Origin: Candidatus Azobacteroides sp.
Lineage (GTDB): Bacteria; Bacteroidota; Bacteroidia; Bacteroidales; WRGA01
Direction of reading: 5' to 3'
Assembly: GCA_021201815.1 (NCBI GenBank)
Contig: JAJQEC010000018.1
Span: 1 to 33,654, forward strand
Length of the DNA: 33,654 nucleotides
The stretch's first letter is position 1. Each line of letters opens with the position of its first letter. The notes under the pieces are model-generated. The model was not told the origin of the DNA. It saw nothing but the letters and a program-made list of their open reading frames with translations, and did not search any database. Of this stretch, positions 3,930-27,454 are shown piece by piece. The position numbers and the translations under genes were made by a program.

Positions 3930-3949
3930 AGCTTAACGTTAAGTTAAGC
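3930..3949 (-). terminator. Possible terminator at the 3' end of the response regulator gene
   Basis: Short dyad GCTTAAC...GTTAAGC overlapping the stop codon, with a T run (CTTTTTT) about 15 bases further on. It is weak, and readthrough into the small acidic gene is possible. Confidence 0.35.
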
Positions 3950-5273
3950 CGTATAACTTCAGTTTATTATAAAGGGTTTTCCGGTCTACACCGAGTAGCT
4001 GAGCAGCCTTTGTTTTATTATTTCCTGCTTCCTTTAATGCCCTTTCTATAAGAATCTTTTCATTTTCTTTATCTTTCAGAGGAGAGGCTGAAAAAGAAAT
4101 GTTCTCTTTCTCTTCTGTAATTTCCGATGGCAGGTCTGACAGTACAATATAGCGTCCGGAAGTTAATAAAGTAGCGTATCGTATTGCATTTTTCATTTCC
4201 CGAAGGTTACCCGGCCAGGAATATGTCTGAATCAAATGCAGGGTATCCGGATCAAACCCGATCACATTCCTTTTTAATTCCTTATTAGCCATATCCAGGA
4301 AATGATGGGCAAACAGCAGGATATCTTCTTTCCGGTCTTTTAAATCCGGTATCCGGATAGTAAATTCTTTGATACGGTGATAAAGGTCTTCCCGGAAATT
4401 CCCTTTTTCAATAGCTCTTCTGAGATTCTCATTAGTAGCCGCTATCAACCGGATATTAATATTAATTTCTTCGTTGCTTCCTATCGGTTTGACTTTTCGC
4501 TCCTGCAACGCCCGGAGAAGTTGTACCTGAACTTCATAAGAAAGGTTTCCGACTTCATCTAAAAATACGGTTCCTCCTTCCGCAGCGACAAAAGCGCCCT
4601 TTTTATCGGAAACAGCTCCTGTAAAAGATCCTTTTACGTGACCAAAAAACTCAGAAGCCGCCAGTTCTTTTGATAAAGATCCGCAATCCAAGGCAATAAA
4701 AGGAAAAGCAGCACGGTTACTTTGTTCATGAATGTGACGGGCTACAAATTCTTTTCCTGTCCCACTGGCACCAATAATCAATACCGACATATCTGTAGGG
4801 GCAACAAGACGCACATGTTGATATAATTGTTTAGCCGCAGGACTATTTCCTTCCAGATAAGAATTATTTCCTCCGCTTTGTACCGGCTTAGATTCCTTTT
4901 TAACAGGTGTTTCTTCCTGTACAAGAAGGCTGTTTATTTTTTCCAGCAGGTTCTCCGGATTCAACGGTTTGGTAATATAATCTGCTGCACCGGCTTTAAT
5001 GGCCTGTACTGCTGTTGGTATATCCGCATAGCTGGTCATCATAATAACCGGAAGGGAAGAGCGCTCTTTCTTTATCCAGGACAATAAGTCCAGACCATTT
5101 CCATCGGGTAGACGAAGGTCCGATAAAAATATATCATAGGTATTTTCCTGAATCTTACGCTTTGCATCTGAAATCAAAGAAGCGGTAGTGACTTCAAAAC
5201 CTTTTTTACGAAGCCATGTGGTCAACATCAGAGAAAAAGTAAGATCATCTTCCAGAATAAAAACAGAAGGCAT
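3939..5273 (-). CDS. Sigma-54-dependent response regulator, NtrC/AtoC type
   Basis: 444 residues with the full three-domain layout. The receiver (1-120) has acidic pocket E8/D9/D10, phosphoacceptor D52 in FLSDLRLPDGNG, T80 and K102. The AAA+ sigma-54 interaction domain (about 138-370) has Walker A GASGTGKE (168-175), the sigma-54-contacting loop as GSFTGA (215-220) instead of the usual GAFTGA, Walker B GTVFLDE, and an arginine-rich FREDLYHR near 293-300. The Fis-type helix-turn-helix at the C terminus is NKTKAAQLLGVDRKTLYNKL. It would use ATP to open promoters held by RpoN. Position and promoter class point to the twin peptide genes at 5800-6545 as targets and to the hybrid kinase at 7097-9565 as phosphate donor; both are inferences. 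Confidence 0.95.
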   Translation of the reverse strand: MPSVFILEDDLTFSLMLTTWLRKKGFEVTTASLISDAKRKIQENTYDIFLSDLRLPDGNGLDLLSWIKKERSSLPVIMMTSYADIPTAVQAIKAGAADYITKPLNPENLLEKINSLLVQEETPVKKESKPVQSGGNNSYLEGNSPAAKQLYQHVRLVAPTDMSVLIIGASGTGKEFVARHIHEQSNRAAFPFIALDCGSLSKELAASEFFGHVKGSFTGAVSDKKGAFVAAEGGTVFLDEVGNLSYEVQVQLLRALQERKVKPIGSNEEININIRLIAATNENLRRAIEKGNFREDLYHRIKEFTIRIPDLKDRKEDILLFAHHFLDMANKELKRNVIGFDPDTLHLIQTYSWPGNLREMKNAIRYATLLTSGRYIVLSDLPSEITEEKENISFSASPLKDKENEKILIERALKEAGNNKTKAAQLLGVDRKTLYNKLKLYGLT

Positions 5274-5303: not shown

Positions 5304-5747
5304 TTTAAATTTAATGACATAAAAAAATACTTTCCGAAAGAGAAAAAATATACAAAAAGAAAAACAGGGATTCTCCTTTTAAGAAAGCAGAAAAAGGAAT
5401 TATTTAAAAAAGTATAAATGGAAAAAGAAACGAAAAACAGAGTAAAAATTCTTTTCTTGTCCGAACCTTTATACCAAATTGCTATATGTTTTATTGTATG
5501 GCTAATTAATTTGGATATTTAACGTCACCACATAAGGTATTTCTACTATTAAGAATGCCATAAATAAAGCTTTTATAAATAAACAACCGTATTTTCTTTA
5601 TGGAAACTATTTTATACCCTGTCAGAATCAGAATATAATGTAAGATGAGAAGCAATTAGTACTCAGAACGAATAAATTAACGGATAAAGATAAATCCATT
5701 AATTGTTGAGAAATAAGAATAAAAAACATCTTCCACTTTTGATAATA
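5304..5747. other. AT-rich intergenic region, no gene supported
   Basis: About 440 bases between the regulator's promoter and the terminator of the first small peptide gene. I see no RNA gene, no sigma-54 element (GG-N10-GC) and no copy of the GTGGAA dyads found further upstream. Confidence 0.5.
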
Positions 5748-5781
5748 AAAAAGGGTTACCCATAGTGGACAACCCCTTAAA
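5748..5781 (-). terminator. Terminator of small peptide gene 1
   Basis: On the minus strand, AAGGGGTT, a loop, AACCC and then TTTTTT, beginning about 20 bases after the stop codon: a stem of five or more pairs with a good U run. Confidence 0.7.
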
Positions 5782-5799
5782 AGAACAAACTTTTTAATC

Positions 5800-5955
5800 T
5801 TATTCAGCAACTTCTACAACTACTGCCTCTTCAGCAGGAGCAGATTCTGTTGATTCTGTTGTAGCTTCTGTAGCTTCTTCTTTAACTTCTTCCTGTGCAA
5901 ATGTAGGAAACGAAAGACCTGCTAAAACAACGGCAAATAATACTAACTTTTTCAT
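5800..5955 (-). CDS. Small exported acidic peptide 1 (51 residues)
   Basis: Translation of the minus strand gives a signal peptide MKKLVLFAVVLAGLSFPTFA (cleavage expected after A20) and then a 31-residue mature peptide starting QEEVKEEATE and ending VVVEVAE. It is rich in Glu, Ala, Thr and Ser, strongly acidic, and has no cysteine. It is paralogous to peptide 2 at 6381-6545: the signal peptides match at 18 of 20 positions and both end VVVE-x-AE. The gene has its own sigma-54 type promoter (6008-6024), an upstream dyad and a terminator. Function is unknown; a periplasmic or secreted signal, buffer or sensor-feedback peptide is conceivable. The N-terminal Gln of the mature form could cyclise to pyroglutamate. 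It is too short for most gene finders, but duplication, signal peptide and flanking signals make it convincing. Confidence 0.85.
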   Translation of the reverse strand: MKKLVLFAVVLAGLSFPTFAQEEVKEEATEATTESTESAPAEEAVVVEVAE

Positions 5956-6007
5956 GACTTTTAGTTTTTTATAAGTTTATAATCCAATTGATATTCTACA
6001 CTTATAT

Positions 6008-6024
6008 ATGCCATTCCTGTGCCA
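6008..6024 (-). promoter_or_regulatory. Sigma-54 (-24/-12) promoter of small peptide gene 1
   Basis: Minus strand TGGCACAGGAATGGCAT. The invariant GG and GC are exactly 10 bases apart, and TGGCAC matches the -24 consensus fully. The -12 element is TGGC instead of TTGC. Expected transcription start is near 5998, about 43 bases before the ATG. The same motif, at almost the same distance, precedes the paralogous gene. Confidence 0.82.
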
Positions 6025-6114
6025 AAGTTGGAGAGATAATGCAAATAAATAAATAAAATGCTTATTATATGAAAGTTAAAGAAAATATCATGTTCAATTT
6101 CAATAGCTTATTAT

Positions 6115-6168
6115 GTGGAATAAAGTGTGGAAACGGGGAAAATTTCCTCAATGGAGTTCTACACTTTT
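6115..6168 (-). promoter_or_regulatory. Putative enhancer (activator binding) site of small peptide gene 1
   Basis: Nested dyads: GTGGAA at 6115-6120 and 6127-6132, the odd palindrome GGAAAATTTCC at 6137-6147, and TTCTACAC at 6157-6164 as the inverted partner of GTGTGGAA at 6125-6132. The core is centred 132 bases upstream of the -12 C (6010), a usual distance for a bacterial enhancer-binding protein. The block aligns without gaps to 6710-6763 upstream of peptide gene 2. Confidence 0.68.
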
Positions 6169-6333
6169 ATGTGTTTTCATTCCTGTATTTGTATTTTATT
6201 TTTACTTGTTACCAGTAAATTGTAAATAATTTAATAATAAAGAAGAAACTTGTATGCTGTATACTATACCTGAAAAGAAATTAGAAAGAAGAAAGGCATA
6301 GGAAATAAAAAGAAATGGAATTTGTAGAAAATA

Positions 6334-6358
6334 AAAAAGAGGCCAATTGGCCTCTTCT
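6334..6358 (-). terminator. Terminator of small peptide gene 2
   Basis: Perfect 20-base palindrome AAGAGGCCAATTGGCCTCTT (6337-6356), followed on the minus strand by a T-rich stretch (TTTTTATTTT). It lies 24 bases past the stop codon. Confidence 0.8.
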
Positions 6359-6380
6359 AAAAGATCAGAACCTTTTAATC

Positions 6381-6545
6381 TTATTCAGCAGCTTCAACAA
6401 CTACTGTGTCTTCAGCAGGAGCTTCTTCTGATGCATCAGTAGTAGCTTCTTTATTTTCACCTTTACATTCTTTATTCTCTTCCTGAGCAAATGTAGGAAA
6501 TGAAAGACCTGCCAAAACAATTGCACACAACACTAATTTTTTCAT
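6381..6545 (-). CDS. Small exported acidic peptide 2 (54 residues)
   Basis: The signal peptide MKKLVLCAIVLAGLSFPTFA is followed by a 34-residue mature peptide beginning QEENKECKGE and ending DTVVVEAAE. It is strongly acidic, with one cysteine in the mature part (absent from peptide 1), so it could form a disulfide-linked dimer. It is a diverged tandem duplicate of peptide 1: coding sequence, leader (both share a TTATAAAAAA run before ATG), sigma-54 promoter and enhancer are all conserved, while the rest of the intergenic DNA is not. It sits between the hybrid kinase and the response regulator. I do not recognise a described family. Confidence 0.85.
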   Translation of the reverse strand: MKKLVLCAIVLAGLSFPTFAQEENKECKGENKEATTDASEEAPAEDTVVVEAAE

Positions 6546-6602
6546 GACTTTAATTTTTTATAATTTATAAATACTTTCAATATTCACATCTGATATAACT
6601 AT

Positions 6603-6619
6603 AAGCCATTCTTGTGCCA
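6603..6619 (-). promoter_or_regulatory. Sigma-54 (-24/-12) promoter of small peptide gene 2
   Basis: Minus strand TGGCACAAGAATGGCTT, with GG and GC 10 bases apart. It matches the element of gene 1 at 14 of 17 positions. Expected start is near 6593, about 48 bases before the ATG. Confidence 0.82.
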
Positions 6620-6709
6620 AAGTTTAATGATATGAGCAAATAAGAGAATAAATACCTGATTAAAAACAAATTATAATAAATACTATCTTTGGGGATTCTT
6701 TTTCTGGCT

Positions 6710-6765
6710 GGGGAAATAACTGGGGAATTGTGGAAAATTTCCACAAGTTAATTCCACACTTTATT
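6710..6765 (-). promoter_or_regulatory. Putative enhancer (activator binding) site of small peptide gene 2
   Basis: A 19-base odd palindrome TTGTGGAAAATTTCCACAA (6728-6746) is nested between GGGGAATT (6722-6729) and the inverted AATTCCAC (6750-6757). The core GGAAAATTTCC (6732-6742) is centred 132 bases from the -12 C at 6605, identical to gene 1. The 14-mer TTCCACACTTTATT (6752-6765) also occurs, inverted, at 6119-6132. Confidence 0.68.
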
Positions 6766-7096: not shown

Positions 7097-9565
7097 CTAG
7101 CTATCTTTCATAAACTCTATTATAAATCTATTTATTTCTTTAGAAACTACTTTTAACTGAAAAATAAGGTTATTCATTTCTTCTTTCCATTCATTGAGGC
7201 TCAATTGGTCTGATCCATTTTCTATTATTCTTAACCTGTCTGTAATTTCCTTATGTTCTAACATGGAAAAAGTAGGTAACATTTTATGCACGGTTTCAGA
7301 TGCAGGTTGTATTTTATTTTCCAATAAATAAGCTTCTAATAAAGATATATTCTTTTCGGTTTCTTCAGAAAAAGTTTTCAGAATAGAAACGGAAGAGATT
7401 TTATCATCCCCTGCAAAAGCAGTTAAAGAAGAAAAATTTAAATCGGATTCTGTTATTATTTCGACATGTAGTATTTCTTTAAATAGATCTAAGAGCTCCT
7501 GAGTAGTATAAGGTTTATTTAAAAAGCCACTGAACCCGGCATCTTTATAAAACTCCTTATTATTCTCCATATTTGCAGATAAAGCCACAACCGGTAACCT
7601 GTTCGTTTTTGGAATTCCTGATTTCCGGATCATTTCCAATAGCTTGTAGCCATCCACCTGAGGCATTTGTATATCCGTCAGGATAATATCAAATACTTCA
7701 TTATGAAGTAAATCCAGGATTTTTTCAGGGTAAGAACAGGTCGATACTTTTACATTCATTTGGATAAGTACTTCCTGTGTTAATGCCAATTGAACCGGGT
7801 CATCATCTACCAGTAAACAATGTATTGTGCCCTGTGAATGAATTTTTACTTTTTTATTCTTTGTTTCGGAAGTATCTTTTTCCGATATACTAACCGGTGC
7901 CATCCGCATAGGGAGAGTTACCTTAAATTCACTGCCCTTTCCGAATGTACTATCTACTGATAACTGACCTTTTAACAGACGGGTAAGCCGGAAAGCAATA
8001 GAAAGTCCGAGACCGAATCCTTCCACTTGTTCTGTACGCGACAATCGCTCGAATTCCGCAAATATTTTTTCTTTTTCATTATCTTTAATGCCAGGTCCTG
8101 TATCCATCACTGAAATATTCAGCCGATGCTCTTTTTCGTTTTTCTTTTCCACAGAAATATTTAAAGCCACCTGCCCTTTCTCCGTAAATTTAATGGCATT
8201 GGATAGTAAATTTCCGGTAATCTGCCGAACCAGAATGGGATCTAACAAATACAATAAGGAATAGTCCTCTTCAAAATTAAGGATACATTGCAATTCCTTT
8301 CTTTCCGCAATGGGATTGAAACCACTATGTATTTCCTGAAATAAAACCCTTAAATCTGTCGGAACGGCATGCACTTCCATACGGCCGGATTCTAACCGAT
8401 AAGAATCCAGCAGGTTATTGATCAAAGAAAGAATATGCTGAGCAGAAACTTTCATATTTTCCAGATAATATTTCTGCCTTTCATTCGGATTCAGACCTTC
8501 GAACAAATCAATATATCCTGTAATAGAAGAAAGAGGAGCACGTATATCATGACTCATCATCAGCATTAATTTCTCACGTGCCTGTAACAAATCCTCTGCA
8601 TACCGATTGGCTTTTTCCAGTTTCTGACGGTAATATCTGCTTTTTGAAATATCCCTTGTAATTACATAGAGAAAAAATATCATGATACCTATTACCAGAC
8701 TAATAACCCCTATAAGGATACGGGTGGTTTCACGAAGCAGTTCCTGTTTATTTACAGTACGGGCAAAAGAAGCATTCATTTCTTCCTCTTCCATATCCCT
8801 TAATAACTGATTAATTTTGGCAGTAATTACATTGTTATTCGTATTCAGATTCTTTACTTTTGATAAAACAAGATTATATGCTCCCTGTTGCTGGTAAGTT
8901 ACACTATCCTGAATATCTTTTAATACATTGGATATTTTTTCAGAAGGGTCAAAATATAACGTATCTGATAATACCTGTCGGCTTGATGTAACTACTACAT
9001 TCGTATCTCCGGAAGATGGAGCAAAGACATTTGCTAACCGCTGAAAGAAATTACGCTTTTTACCAGGCAAGAAAACGGTATCCTGCTGTATTTCTACTTC
9101 TTTTTCTAATTCTACTGTTACCGTATCCCGAATAGCAATTACACGATCGATATTGCGGGCATATAACCGTTCCGGGCTTGACTCATGAATAGCTTCGAGT
9201 AAACTTCTCGTGTTAATCCGTTTTCTTTCCAGAAGACTATTGATCGTATCTATTTTGAGCAGCTGAATGGAATCCGTCGTCAATACTTTCAAGGAATCCA
9301 TATTAAGACGGGCATTATTAAGTAACTGATTATAATTCCCATTGGCAGGAGTAAATAATTGCCCTAACGCTTCACTTTCATATACAAGAGAAAGTGTATT
9401 TGTAACAAGATAAATCCGTGTACGTGAAGTATGATCGGGTTCTTCTTCTTTTGCTACTTCTTTTGTAATGTCATATATATACATTACCGAAAAAATAGCA
9501 ACAATCACTATAAACAGATACCCTATAATAATTTTTAAAGTAGTATATCTATTTTTTTCTGTCAT
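7097..9565 (-). CDS. Hybrid sensor histidine kinase with receiver and HPt-like domain
   Basis: 822 residues. A membrane segment (about 11-30) and a second (about 283-302) bracket a periplasmic sensor of about 250 residues that I cannot assign to a known fold; it contains a long variable stretch around 150-205. Cytoplasmic order: HisKA with H339 in MMSHDIRAPLSS; HATPase with N456 (NLLSNAIKFT), DTGPGI at 488 and GFGLGLSI near 516; receiver (about 581-700) with DDD pocket, phosphoacceptor D631 (LTDIQMPQVDG), S663 and K684; and a C-terminal helical domain with H760 in TVHKMLPTF, which I read as a degenerate HPt. The full chain His-Asp-His is therefore on one protein and could pass phosphate to a separate regulator, most likely the sigma-54 regulator at 3939-5273. 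The stimulus is unknown. Confidence 0.93.
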   Translation of the reverse strand: MTEKNRYTTLKIIIGYLFIVIVAIFSVMYIYDITKEVAKEEEPDHTSRTRIYLVTNTLSLVYESEALGQLFTPANGNYNQLLNNARLNMDSLKVLTTDSIQLLKIDTINSLLERKRINTRSLLEAIHESSPERLYARNIDRVIAIRDTVTVELEKEVEIQQDTVFLPGKKRNFFQRLANVFAPSSGDTNVVVTSSRQVLSDTLYFDPSEKISNVLKDIQDSVTYQQQGAYNLVLSKVKNLNTNNNVITAKINQLLRDMEEEEMNASFARTVNKQELLRETTRILIGVISLVIGIMIFFLYVITRDISKSRYYRQKLEKANRYAEDLLQAREKLMLMMSHDIRAPLSSITGYIDLFEGLNPNERQKYYLENMKVSAQHILSLINNLLDSYRLESGRMEVHAVPTDLRVLFQEIHSGFNPIAERKELQCILNFEEDYSLLYLLDPILVRQITGNLLSNAIKFTEKGQVALNISVEKKNEKEHRLNISVMDTGPGIKDNEKEKIFAEFERLSRTEQVEGFGLGLSIAFRLTRLLKGQLSVDSTFGKGSEFKVTLPMRMAPVSISEKDTSETKNKKVKIHSQGTIHCLLVDDDPVQLALTQEVLIQMNVKVSTCSYPEKILDLLHNEVFDIILTDIQMPQVDGYKLLEMIRKSGIPKTNRLPVVALSANMENNKEFYKDAGFSGFLNKPYTTQELLDLFKEILHVEIITESDLNFSSLTAFAGDDKISSVSILKTFSEETEKNISLLEAYLLENKIQPASETVHKMLPTFSMLEHKEITDRLRIIENGSDQLSLNEWKEEMNNLIFQLKVVSKEINRFIIEFMKDS

Positions 9566-25599: not shown

Positions 25600-25675
25600 T
25601 GGCACGGGTTGAGAGACTCGAACTCCCGACACCTGGTTTTGGAGACCAGTGCTCTACCAACTGAGCTAAACCCGT
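25600..25675 (-). tRNA. trnW: tRNA-Trp (anticodon CCA)
   Basis: Acceptor ACGGGTT/AACCCGT, D arm AGCTCAGTTGGTAGAGC, anticodon stem-loop CTGGT-CTCCAAA-ACCAG, and T loop GTTCGAG. The 3' GCCA is encoded, unlike the four tRNAs before tuf. It lies between tuf and secE and must be processed out of the long transcript. Confidence 0.97.
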
Positions 25676-25683
25676 AAAAAGAT

Positions 25684-25737
25684 AAAAACTAAAAGTTAAT
25701 CATCTTAAAAACTCAAAACTCTTAACTTTTAGTTTTT
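25684..25737 (-). repeat. 16-bp inverted repeat between tuf and tRNA-Trp
   Basis: AAAAACTAAAAGTTAA (25684-25699) and its exact complement (25722-25737) flank 22 bases. The stem is A+T-only apart from two pairs. It might be a weak terminator/attenuator or a processing site in the tuf-trnW-secE transcript. Confidence 0.6.
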
Positions 25738-25764
25738 AGTTTTTATCTTCTAACTAATCAATGA

Positions 25765-26952
25765 TTAGTCAAGGATTTCAGTAATCTGACCTGCACCTAC
25801 TGTACGTCCACCTTCACGGATTGCGAAACGAAGACCTACACTACATGCTACCGGGTAGATAAGTTCTACTGTAATAGTTACGTTATCACCAGGCATTACC
25901 ATTTCAGTTCCTTCCGGCAAAGTAATTTCTCCGGTTACGTCCAGTGTACGGATATAGAACTGAGGACGGTATTTATTATGGAATGGAGTATGACGACCAC
26001 CTTCTTCTTTTTTCAGGATATAAACCTCAGCTTTAAATCTAGTGTGAGGAGTTACTTTTCCCGGGTGAGTGATAACCATACCACGTTTGATTTCATCTTT
26101 GTCGATACCACGAAGTAAAAGACCTACGTTGTCACCAGCCTGACCTTCGTCAAGAATTTTACGGAACATTTCTACTCCTGTAACAACTGATTTTTTACCT
26201 TCAGCACCTAAACCGATGATCTGTACTTCTTCACCTGTTTTGATGATACCTGTTTCGATACGACCTGTAGCAACAGTACCACGACCAGTGATTGAGAATA
26301 CATCTTCAACCGGCATAAGGAATGGTTTATCGATATCACGTGGAGGAAGCGGAATCCATTCGTCAACAGCTGCCATTAGTTCCATGATTTTATCTTCCCA
26401 TTCTGCAACACCGTTCAAGCCACCAAGAGCAGAACCTCTGATAACAGGAGTATTGTCACCGTCGAAATTATAGAAAGAAAGTAATTCTCTCATTTCCATT
26501 TCAACTAATTCCAACATTTCCTCGTCATCAACCATATCGCATTTGTTCATAAACACAACGATTTTAGGCACGTTCACCTGACGAGCCAAAAGGATGTGTT
26601 CACGAGTCTGAGGCATAGGACCGTCAGTAGCAGCAACCACGATAATTGCACCATCCATCTGAGCAGCACCGGTAACCATGTTTTTCACATAGTCGGCGTG
26701 ACCCGGACAGTCAACGTGTGCATAGTGACGATTTTCTGTTTGGTATTCTACGTGTGCAGTATTAATCGTAATACCTCTTTCTTTTTCTTCAGGAGCATTG
26801 TCAATCTGATCGAAAGATTTTACTTCTGAAAGACCTCTTTTTGCTAATACTGTAGTAATAGCAGCGGTCAAAGTCGTTTTACCGTGGTCAACGTGTCCAA
26901 TAGTACCAATGTTCACGTGCGGTTTCGAGCGTTCAAATTTCTCTTTAGCCAT
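25765..26952 (-). CDS. tuf: Elongation factor Tu
   Basis: 395 residues. GTP-binding motifs: GHVDHGKT (about 19-26), DCPGHADY (about 81-88) and NKCD (about 136-139), with switch 1 [12 protein letters not shown]. Domains II and III follow, ending [12 protein letters not shown]. It delivers aminoacyl-tRNA to the ribosome. It is preceded on the minus strand by four tRNA genes, as in the tufB operon of E. coli, and followed by tRNA-Trp and secE. Confidence 0.99.
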
Positions 26953-27005
26953 AGCTTAACTTGTTATTTATTTTATTTAAATGATTAGCCTCTTGGGGTT
27001 GTTAG

Positions 27006-27077
<72 letters not shown>

Positions 27078-27085
27078 TGATTAAG

Positions 27086-27158
27086 AGCGGGAAACGGGAC
27101 TCAAACCCGCGACCCTCAGCTTGGAAGGCTAATGCTCTATCAACTGAGCTATTCCCGC
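27086..27158 (-). tRNA. trnG: tRNA-Gly (anticodon TCC)
   Basis: Acceptor GCGGGAA/TTCCCGC, D arm AGCTCAGTTGATAGAGC, anticodon stem-loop TTAGC-CTTCCAA-GCTGA, T loop GTTTGAG. No encoded CCA. Equivalent to E. coli glyT. Confidence 0.97.
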
Positions 27159-27196
27159 AAATCAACCCTTTTTGTTACCTTTATAAACAAAAAGCG

Positions 27197-27279
27197 TGGG
27201 CGAAGATGGATTCGAACCACCGTAGGTATTAACCAGCAGATTTACAGTCTGCCCCATTTGGCCACTCTGGTATTCGCCC
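27197..27279 (-). tRNA. trnY: tRNA-Tyr (anticodon GTA)
   Basis: Acceptor GGGCGAA/TTCGCCC, anticodon loop CTGTAAA inside CAGA/TCTG, and a long variable arm as expected for class II tRNA-Tyr. T loop GTTCGAA. CCA is not encoded. Confidence 0.96.
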
Positions 27280-27380
27280 GGAATTTTTCAAAAAGTAAAA
27301 ACTAAATTATGTCAACAGCACTCTTTCTGTAAACATTAAAAGACTTTCGGTTGTTATCTTTTAACTTTTAGTTTCCTTTG

Positions 27381-27454
27381 AGCCTCTTGTCGGATTCGAA
27401 CCAACGACCCCGAGATTACAAATCACGTGCTCTAGCCAGCTGAGCTAAAGAGGC
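27381..27454 (-). tRNA. trnT: tRNA-Thr (anticodon TGT)
   Basis: Acceptor GCCTCTT/AAGAGGC, anticodon loop TTTGTAA, T loop GTTCGAA. The anticodon stem CGTGA/TCTCG has a central T-T mismatch. CCA is not encoded. First gene of the tRNA-tuf unit, matching E. coli thrU. Confidence 0.95.

Follow-up and report, generated by a model that had tools for sequence, protein, structure and literature searches.

A candidate dedicated sigma-54 circuit in Candidatus Azobacteroides, with two predicted exported acidic peptides and a product that appears to vary across Bacteroidales

The DNA analyzed here (the window, a stretch of 33,654 nucleotides from Candidatus Azobacteroides sp.) probably encodes a dedicated two-component sigma-54 circuit, made up of an envelope sensor, a phosphorelay, an activator and two exported peptides. 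An initial annotation of the same DNA had proposed such a circuit, and as an architecture the proposal is well supported by the predicted domains, by an enhancer conserved beside the regulator, and by the finding of no other target with enhancer and promoter in the genome. On balance we also favor a broader reading, in which a sigma-54 circuit found throughout Bacteroidales retains the sensor, the regulator, the enhancer and the promoter while swapping its product, so that disordered exported peptides in some genera correspond to small RNAs in others. Bacteroides would then be in transition, with the signal codons of a peptide mRNA now serving as a conserved RNA core that has outlived repeated, independent loss of the frame.

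We picture the circuit in the window as follows. The hybrid kinase would sense something in the envelope, and phosphate would pass from its histidine kinase core to its own receiver, from there to its Hpt and finally to the response regulator, as the order of domains suggests. Once phosphorylated, the regulator would bind an array of TGTGGAA-N3-TTCCACA sites about 108 bp upstream of each promoter, loop to the sigma-54 polymerase at the -24/-12 element and switch on two short single-gene transcripts. Each of these would yield a Sec-exported, strongly acidic peptide, probably unfolded, with about 31-34 residues left once the signal is cleaved.

Locus organization

The genes run in the order hybrid kinase, peptide gene 1, peptide gene 2, response regulator, all on the minus strand (Table 1), which is the one-strand arrangement described in the initial annotation. 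The window also carries a tmRNA gene (Rfam RF00023) at 319-717 on the minus strand and five tRNAs at 25603-27454; an Rfam scan of the window and seven related loci returned tRNAs and tmRNA only, with no family at the circuit outputs.

Table 1. Features of the candidate circuit, with positions counted from the first base of the window. The start of each predicted transcript was placed 12 nt from the GC of the -12 element.
Feature	Position	Strand	Description
Hybrid sensor histidine kinase	7097..9565	-	822 aa; HisKA, HATPase_c, Response_reg (Pfam), C-terminal Hpt (TVHKMLPTF)
Basic amphipathic periplasmic segment of kinase	9017..9064	-	GKKRNFFQRLANVFAP, residues about 168-183
Enhancer array 1	6709..6758	-	core palindrome TGTGGAAATTTTCCACA at 6729-6745; half-sites -138, -125, -115, -107, -95 relative to promoter
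-24/-12 promoter 1	6605..6620	-	TTGGCACAAGAATGGC
Predicted transcript 1	6333..6593	-	261 nt; inferred start to intrinsic terminator (hairpin + U-run)
Peptide gene 1, predicted exported	6381..6545	-	54 aa; MKKLVLCAIVLAGLSFPTFA/QEE..., acidic disordered tail
Enhancer array 2	6114..6163	-	degenerate core TGAGGAAATTTTCCCCG at 6134-6150; half-sites in array 1 register
-24/-12 promoter 2	6010..6025	-	TTGGCACAGGAATGGC
Predicted transcript 2	5747..5998	-	252 nt; intrinsic terminator (hairpin + U-run)
Peptide gene 2, predicted exported	5800..5955	-	51 aa; MKKLVLFAVVLAGLSFPTFA/QEE...
NtrC-type response regulator	3939..5273	-	444 aa; receiver, AAA+ sigma-54 interaction domain, Fis-type HTH (Pfam)

Kinase, phosphorelay and regulator

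Membrane helices read from the kinase sequence lie at about residues 12-28 (TM1) and 283-305 (TM2) with a periplasmic domain between them, and this plan is conserved in orthologs. Pfam gave no match to an Hpt domain in the kinase at E 1e-3; the Hpt was recognized in an alignment of 20 orthologous kinases, at whose C termini lies an Hpt-like segment containing a conserved His-Lys/Arg motif. On paper, a relay from kinase through receiver and Hpt to regulator would thus be complete. The sigma-54 contact loop of the regulator reads GSFTGA, a GAFTGA-type variant that also occurs in the other activator of this genome, and the genome has a single rpoN gene (E 1e-53).

Sigma-54 promoters

The two -24/-12 elements that the initial annotation placed before the small genes, with GG-N10-GC and the complete TGGCAC in either one, are both present and differ from the consensus by one mismatch. 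The sites are real, although the positions first given for them were off by 1-2 bases, and the predicted transcription starts (6593 and 5998) agree with those named earlier. From the GC of the -12 element to the ATG there are 59 bases for gene 1, close to the 58 first reported, and 54 for gene 2, where the 31 first reported was wrong. In the Markov-shuffled intergenic region between kinase and regulator, 0.009 sites are expected (at most 1 mismatch, GGCA fixed) and 2 are observed, though the two are not independent because they are paralogous.

Consensus matches (at most 1 mismatch) are only modestly enriched genome-wide, with 41 sites against 28 for the reversed control, as would be the case if the window sites were chance occurrences or relics and the peptides were expressed from ordinary Bacteroidetes -33/-7 promoters. 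We regard this as highly improbable given the position of the sites, their spacing from an enhancer, their order-wide conservation and the low number expected in the region. The case for the two predicted promoters is built on the enhancer 108 bp upstream and on comparative data, rather than on consensus matches alone.

Enhancer palindromes

The earlier picture of promoters and regulator holds, but it overlooked the enhancers: upstream of each promoter in the window, at a distance of exactly 108 bp, lies a palindrome, TGTGGAA-N3-TTCCACA. The core of enhancer 1 is a perfect 17-bp palindrome and that of enhancer 2 is degenerate, with 3 mismatches, and half-sites at -138, -125, -107 and -95 stand in the same register in both arrays. 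We scanned 99 loci around the orthologous regulator for pairs of palindrome and -24/-12 element (at most 2 mismatches per element, 30-200 bp apart) and found 52 pairs in the 664 kb that lie no more than 3 kb from the regulator versus 1 in the other 878 kb; with a control palindrome, the whole scan yielded 1 pair. At this strict threshold 47 of the 99 loci, some of them contig ends, have no pair. The enhancer adjoining the regulator is conserved in many Bacteroidales families, and because the palindrome is associated with the regulator gene across loci, we read it as the putative binding site of the neighboring regulator. Distances between enhancer and promoter peak at about 97-99, 107-108 and 117-120 bp; helical phasing of these distances was considered and is not significant when repeated distances are collapsed to one (R 0.30, p 0.16).

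Dedication within the genome

Palindrome-like sites with at most 2 mismatches number 23 in the genome, against 5 for the reversed control. All 23 were inspected, and a plausible promoter followed by a gene was present downstream only at the two peptide genes. A candidate third target on contig C117 (locus L199) was rejected, as its site falls inside a coding sequence.

The genome has two strong sigma-54 activators, the regulator in the window and a receiver-less one on contig C138, which adjoins an LptE-like and a SecG-like gene (both named by eye). Further -24/-12 sites occur 53 bases before htpG (L013, C43:14940-14955) and 77 bases before dnaK (L015, C47:11568-11583), both without the palindrome. 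Since the palindrome is missing there, another activator presumably serves these two genes; we infer that it is the receiver-less one, which suggests a separate sigma-54 chaperone regulon under the C138 activator. One could extend this to the window, with sites that are real but part of a general RpoN regulon under the C138 activator, leaving the neighboring regulator with other targets. A second activator and additional -24/-12 sites before dnaK and htpG do exist, as that account needs, but in many families the palindrome accompanies the regulator gene, it is rare elsewhere, and it is absent at dnaK and htpG, so that we consider the extension very unlikely.

The twin peptides

Both peptides begin with MKKLVL(C/F)A(I/V)VLAGLSFPTFAQEE, a textbook Sec signal as judged by eye. 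The parts after the signal comprise 31-34 residues, contain no F, W, Y, L, I or M, and have net charges of -9 and -10. These are the only two copies of the gene in the genome, and the duplication takes in the promoter and leader. Comparison of the paralogs, which is small (51 codons) but shows a strong contrast in the signal part, gives pN 0.04 and pS 0.47 for the signal-peptide codons and pN 0.19 and pS 0.22 for the mature part. The former values are a clear sign of purifying selection on the protein at the signal peptides, while the mature peptides seem to evolve almost without constraint; because they are also unrecognizable by sequence outside the species, their role may be loose.

A protein search for homologs in 149 genomes returned weak, unconvincing matches only, because the tails diverge too fast, and synteny via kinase and regulator succeeded instead. 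Membership in the PG1828 lipoprotein family (NCBIfam NF050142) was rejected, with 30.8 bits against a cut-off of 50 and no lipobox cysteine at the cleavage region. Tandem duplicate peptide genes adjoining the regulator also occur in three Bacteroides loci (L168, L244, L250), in parallel to the twins in the window.

The periplasmic domain of the kinase offers one possible partner. A basic amphipathic helix, (K/R)(K/R).FF(K/R)RLA(D/E)VF (also KKxFFKRLAxVF), is found in 58 of the 62 kinases compared. A structural model of the sensor (mean pLDDT 76.6, pTM 0.48) predicts a helix bundle with a two-stranded insertion and places the basic helix, at 173-181, between the two strands. A fold search with this model gave no match at E below 0.001, and a weak resemblance to helical sensors, among them McpS and TorS, with low TM-scores. 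Charge pairing between the acidic peptides and this conserved basic segment is suggestive only, and we speculate, tentatively, that the peptides could serve as an envelope-stress effector or a feedback ligand acting on cationic or membrane-active partners, possibly including the basic segment of the kinase sensor itself. Three kinases belonging to a single family (L090-L092) lack the helix, and the outputs of two of them are PepSY-like.

Conservation and exchange of the product

The initial annotation had called for a search of Bacteroidales genomes for the kinase-peptide-regulator neighborhood and for conservation of the -24/-12 elements, and this search was positive. Orthologs of the kinase, identified by the sensor region (E at most 1e-10), occur in 39 of 393 Bacteroidales genomes, kinase and regulator genes adjoin each other in many families, and 80 named regulator loci were retrieved. 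A relative of the same genus (L083) has a single predicted exported acidic peptide, different in sequence, between kinase and regulator, with both the palindrome and a -24/-12 element (the latter with 3 mismatches). Bacteroides and Barnesiella-like genomes have predicted exported low-complexity peptides behind enhancer and promoter, for example with TDSVPTQEPK repeats, and a few relatives have PepSY-like exported proteins there (recognized by eye). At one further locus (L086:5320-6066), the stretch covered has a kinase ortholog, no regulator, and the palindrome with a weak -24/-12 element before a 248-aa exported protein.

In Parabacteroides and relatives, the position of the peptide gene is taken by a non-coding stretch with an invariant block, GTTTCTACATTTA, and a terminator. 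Short RNA candidates of this type (L081, L082, L084, L085, L101-L103, L108, L114, L119, L123) lie mostly between kinase and regulator. Phocaeicola and relatives have a non-coding stretch with AACCCAACCC, GAAGATGCCTATGTGTT and a terminator, and GAAGATGCCTATGTGTT is invariant in the short RNA candidates of this type (L087, L132, L142, L144, L149, L153, L159, L160, L163, L171). A short peptide, MKMPMC, could be encoded in most of these loci, and because L171 lacks the ATG for it, the RNA seems to be the conserved entity. No Rfam match was found in the two Phocaeicola-type loci scanned (L087, L163). In a regulator tree built by a quick method, the Phocaeicola type forms one supported clade, and coding and ORF-less Bacteroides loci are intermixed, with at least two, more likely about four, switches between the two states.

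These comparisons suggest that regulator, enhancer and promoter are kept across Bacteroidales while the product varies between exported disordered peptides, PepSY-like exported proteins and short non-coding RNAs, and that the peptide message has, in some genera, given way to a conserved non-coding RNA, either by replacement or by decay into one. The idea that exported peptides are the output of the circuit is therefore supported in the window, but they appear not to be its sole output, as several genera have a non-coding RNA in their place.

An RNA core in Bacteroides

In eight ORF-less Bacteroides loci (L147, L148, L158, L165, L173, L175, L178, L180) loss of the start codon or a break in the frame has left 18-35 nt of the signal-peptide stretch nearly identical; these are the core-keeping members among the 10 ORF-less Bacteroides loci of the regulator-based set, with the core absent in L145 and L150. 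The exact core, TGTTTATGTTTGTTTGTG, which in intact copies lies inside the signal-peptide codons, occurs in 73 of 150 Bacteroides genomes, and its reversed control in none. An upstream -24/-12 element (at most 2 mismatches) accompanies 62 of the 68 distinct occurrences inspected, and 56 of these also have the palindrome. A script counted 31 open frames and 37 occurrences without one; after curation, in which L256 and L259 were removed (no promoter) and L277 and L229 were set aside as odd, about 29 have a peptide and about 35 do not, a ratio that is no rate, the scan being blind to genomes with a decayed core. Among intact copies, the signal core has a synonymous divergence of mostly 0-0.5, versus 0.34-0.85 for the regulator gene.

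The simplest reading of these sequences is that the Bacteroides transcript acts as a small RNA, or as one with a dual function, and that its active core overlaps the signal-peptide codons. Being rich in U and G, the core could pair with the A-rich leaders that Bacteroidetes mRNAs have, and candidate targets in Bacteroides genomes would be those with the complement of CCUGUUUAUGUUUGUUUGUG near start codons. At L229, as at L230 and L233, an ORF-less core directly follows the promoter. Behind the core at L229 comes a peptide gene that looks intact, so that both RNA and peptide may be made there.

Might the window transcripts, too, act mainly as RNAs or dual-function RNAs, with their peptide frames secondary and the regulator a riboregulation switch like LuxO-Qrr or GlrR-GlmY? 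The exact core in about 35 broken-frame Bacteroides loci, most with the same promoter and enhancer, its retention in 8 of 10 ORF-less loci, a synonymous divergence of signal codons far below that of the regulator gene, and the invariant blocks in the non-coding stretches of the Parabacteroides and Phocaeicola types would all fit such a role. The signal peptides in the window nevertheless have the opposite of the Bacteroides pattern (pS 0.47 versus pN 0.04), and the RNA blocks of the other genera are not seen in the window transcripts. The targets of LuxO-Qrr and GlrR-GlmY type systems are non-coding; the frames in the window are under coding constraint, and the target looks non-coding in Parabacteroides, Phocaeicola and part of Bacteroides. 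An RNA role for the window transcripts is in our judgment unlikely, and we retain the reading of a dedicated circuit with exported peptides.

Discussion

Together, these observations give Bacteroidales a candidate sigma-54 circuit whose enhancer sequence can be tested and whose start sites are predicted in tractable species. They also yield a defined set of candidate small RNAs without an Rfam match. The Bacteroides series, in which intact, partly decayed and lost frames share one core, may be a natural experiment in the passage from messenger RNA to regulatory RNA.

The sigma-54 regulon of Flavobacterium psychrophilum, a member of the same phylum, has the -24/-12 motif and, in the part of its description considered here, includes exported proteins of unknown function along with chaperones (PMC9723704). 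The same part of that account differs from ours in assigning no regulator to individual promoters and in having no kinase-peptide-regulator unit, and its chaperone branch resembles the dnaK and htpG sites described above, not the peptide circuit. RpoN and sigma-54 are not mentioned in the main text of the B. thetaiotaomicron transcriptome papers (PMC7366714, PMC10994844). The promoter of BatR, an sRNA related to bile, has an ordinary -7 box (PMC10861873). In the literature searched, which comprised main texts outside subscription journals, we found no description of a kinase-peptide-regulator unit and no Bacteroidales sigma-54 regulon for which an activator is named.

In Gammaproteobacteria, the LuxO-Qrr and GlrR(QseF)-GlmY/GlmZ systems use a sigma-54 response regulator to drive short, separately terminated transcripts. 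The circuit shares this plan of a sigma-54 regulator acting on short terminated transcripts, which in Bacteroidales relatives resemble small RNAs, but the window products are predicted exported peptides under coding constraint, and the Bacteroidales circuit has its own enhancer and RNAs, with a type of product that differs between genera. ZraSR-ZraP and CpxAR-CpxP are envelope two-component systems that induce a small exported protein, and ZraR is also a sigma-54 activator. The combination of an envelope two-component system with a small exported product recurs here, as predicted from sequence; unlike ZraP and CpxP, which are folded proteins, the window peptides look unfolded, acidic and hardly conserved, and the kinase is a hybrid with an Hpt. 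The dual-function RNAs SgrS/SgrT and RNAIII combine a short reading frame with a conserved non-coding element on one transcript, as the Bacteroides transcripts appear to do, but the conserved element of Bacteroides sits within the codons of the signal peptide and persists after the frame is lost, and no Rfam family is found at these loci. The circuit would work much as do the known sigma-54 two-component systems that act on a small local target, and what appears unusual about it is that disordered exported peptides are the sole targets detected in the genome and that relatives seem to have exchanged peptide for RNA.
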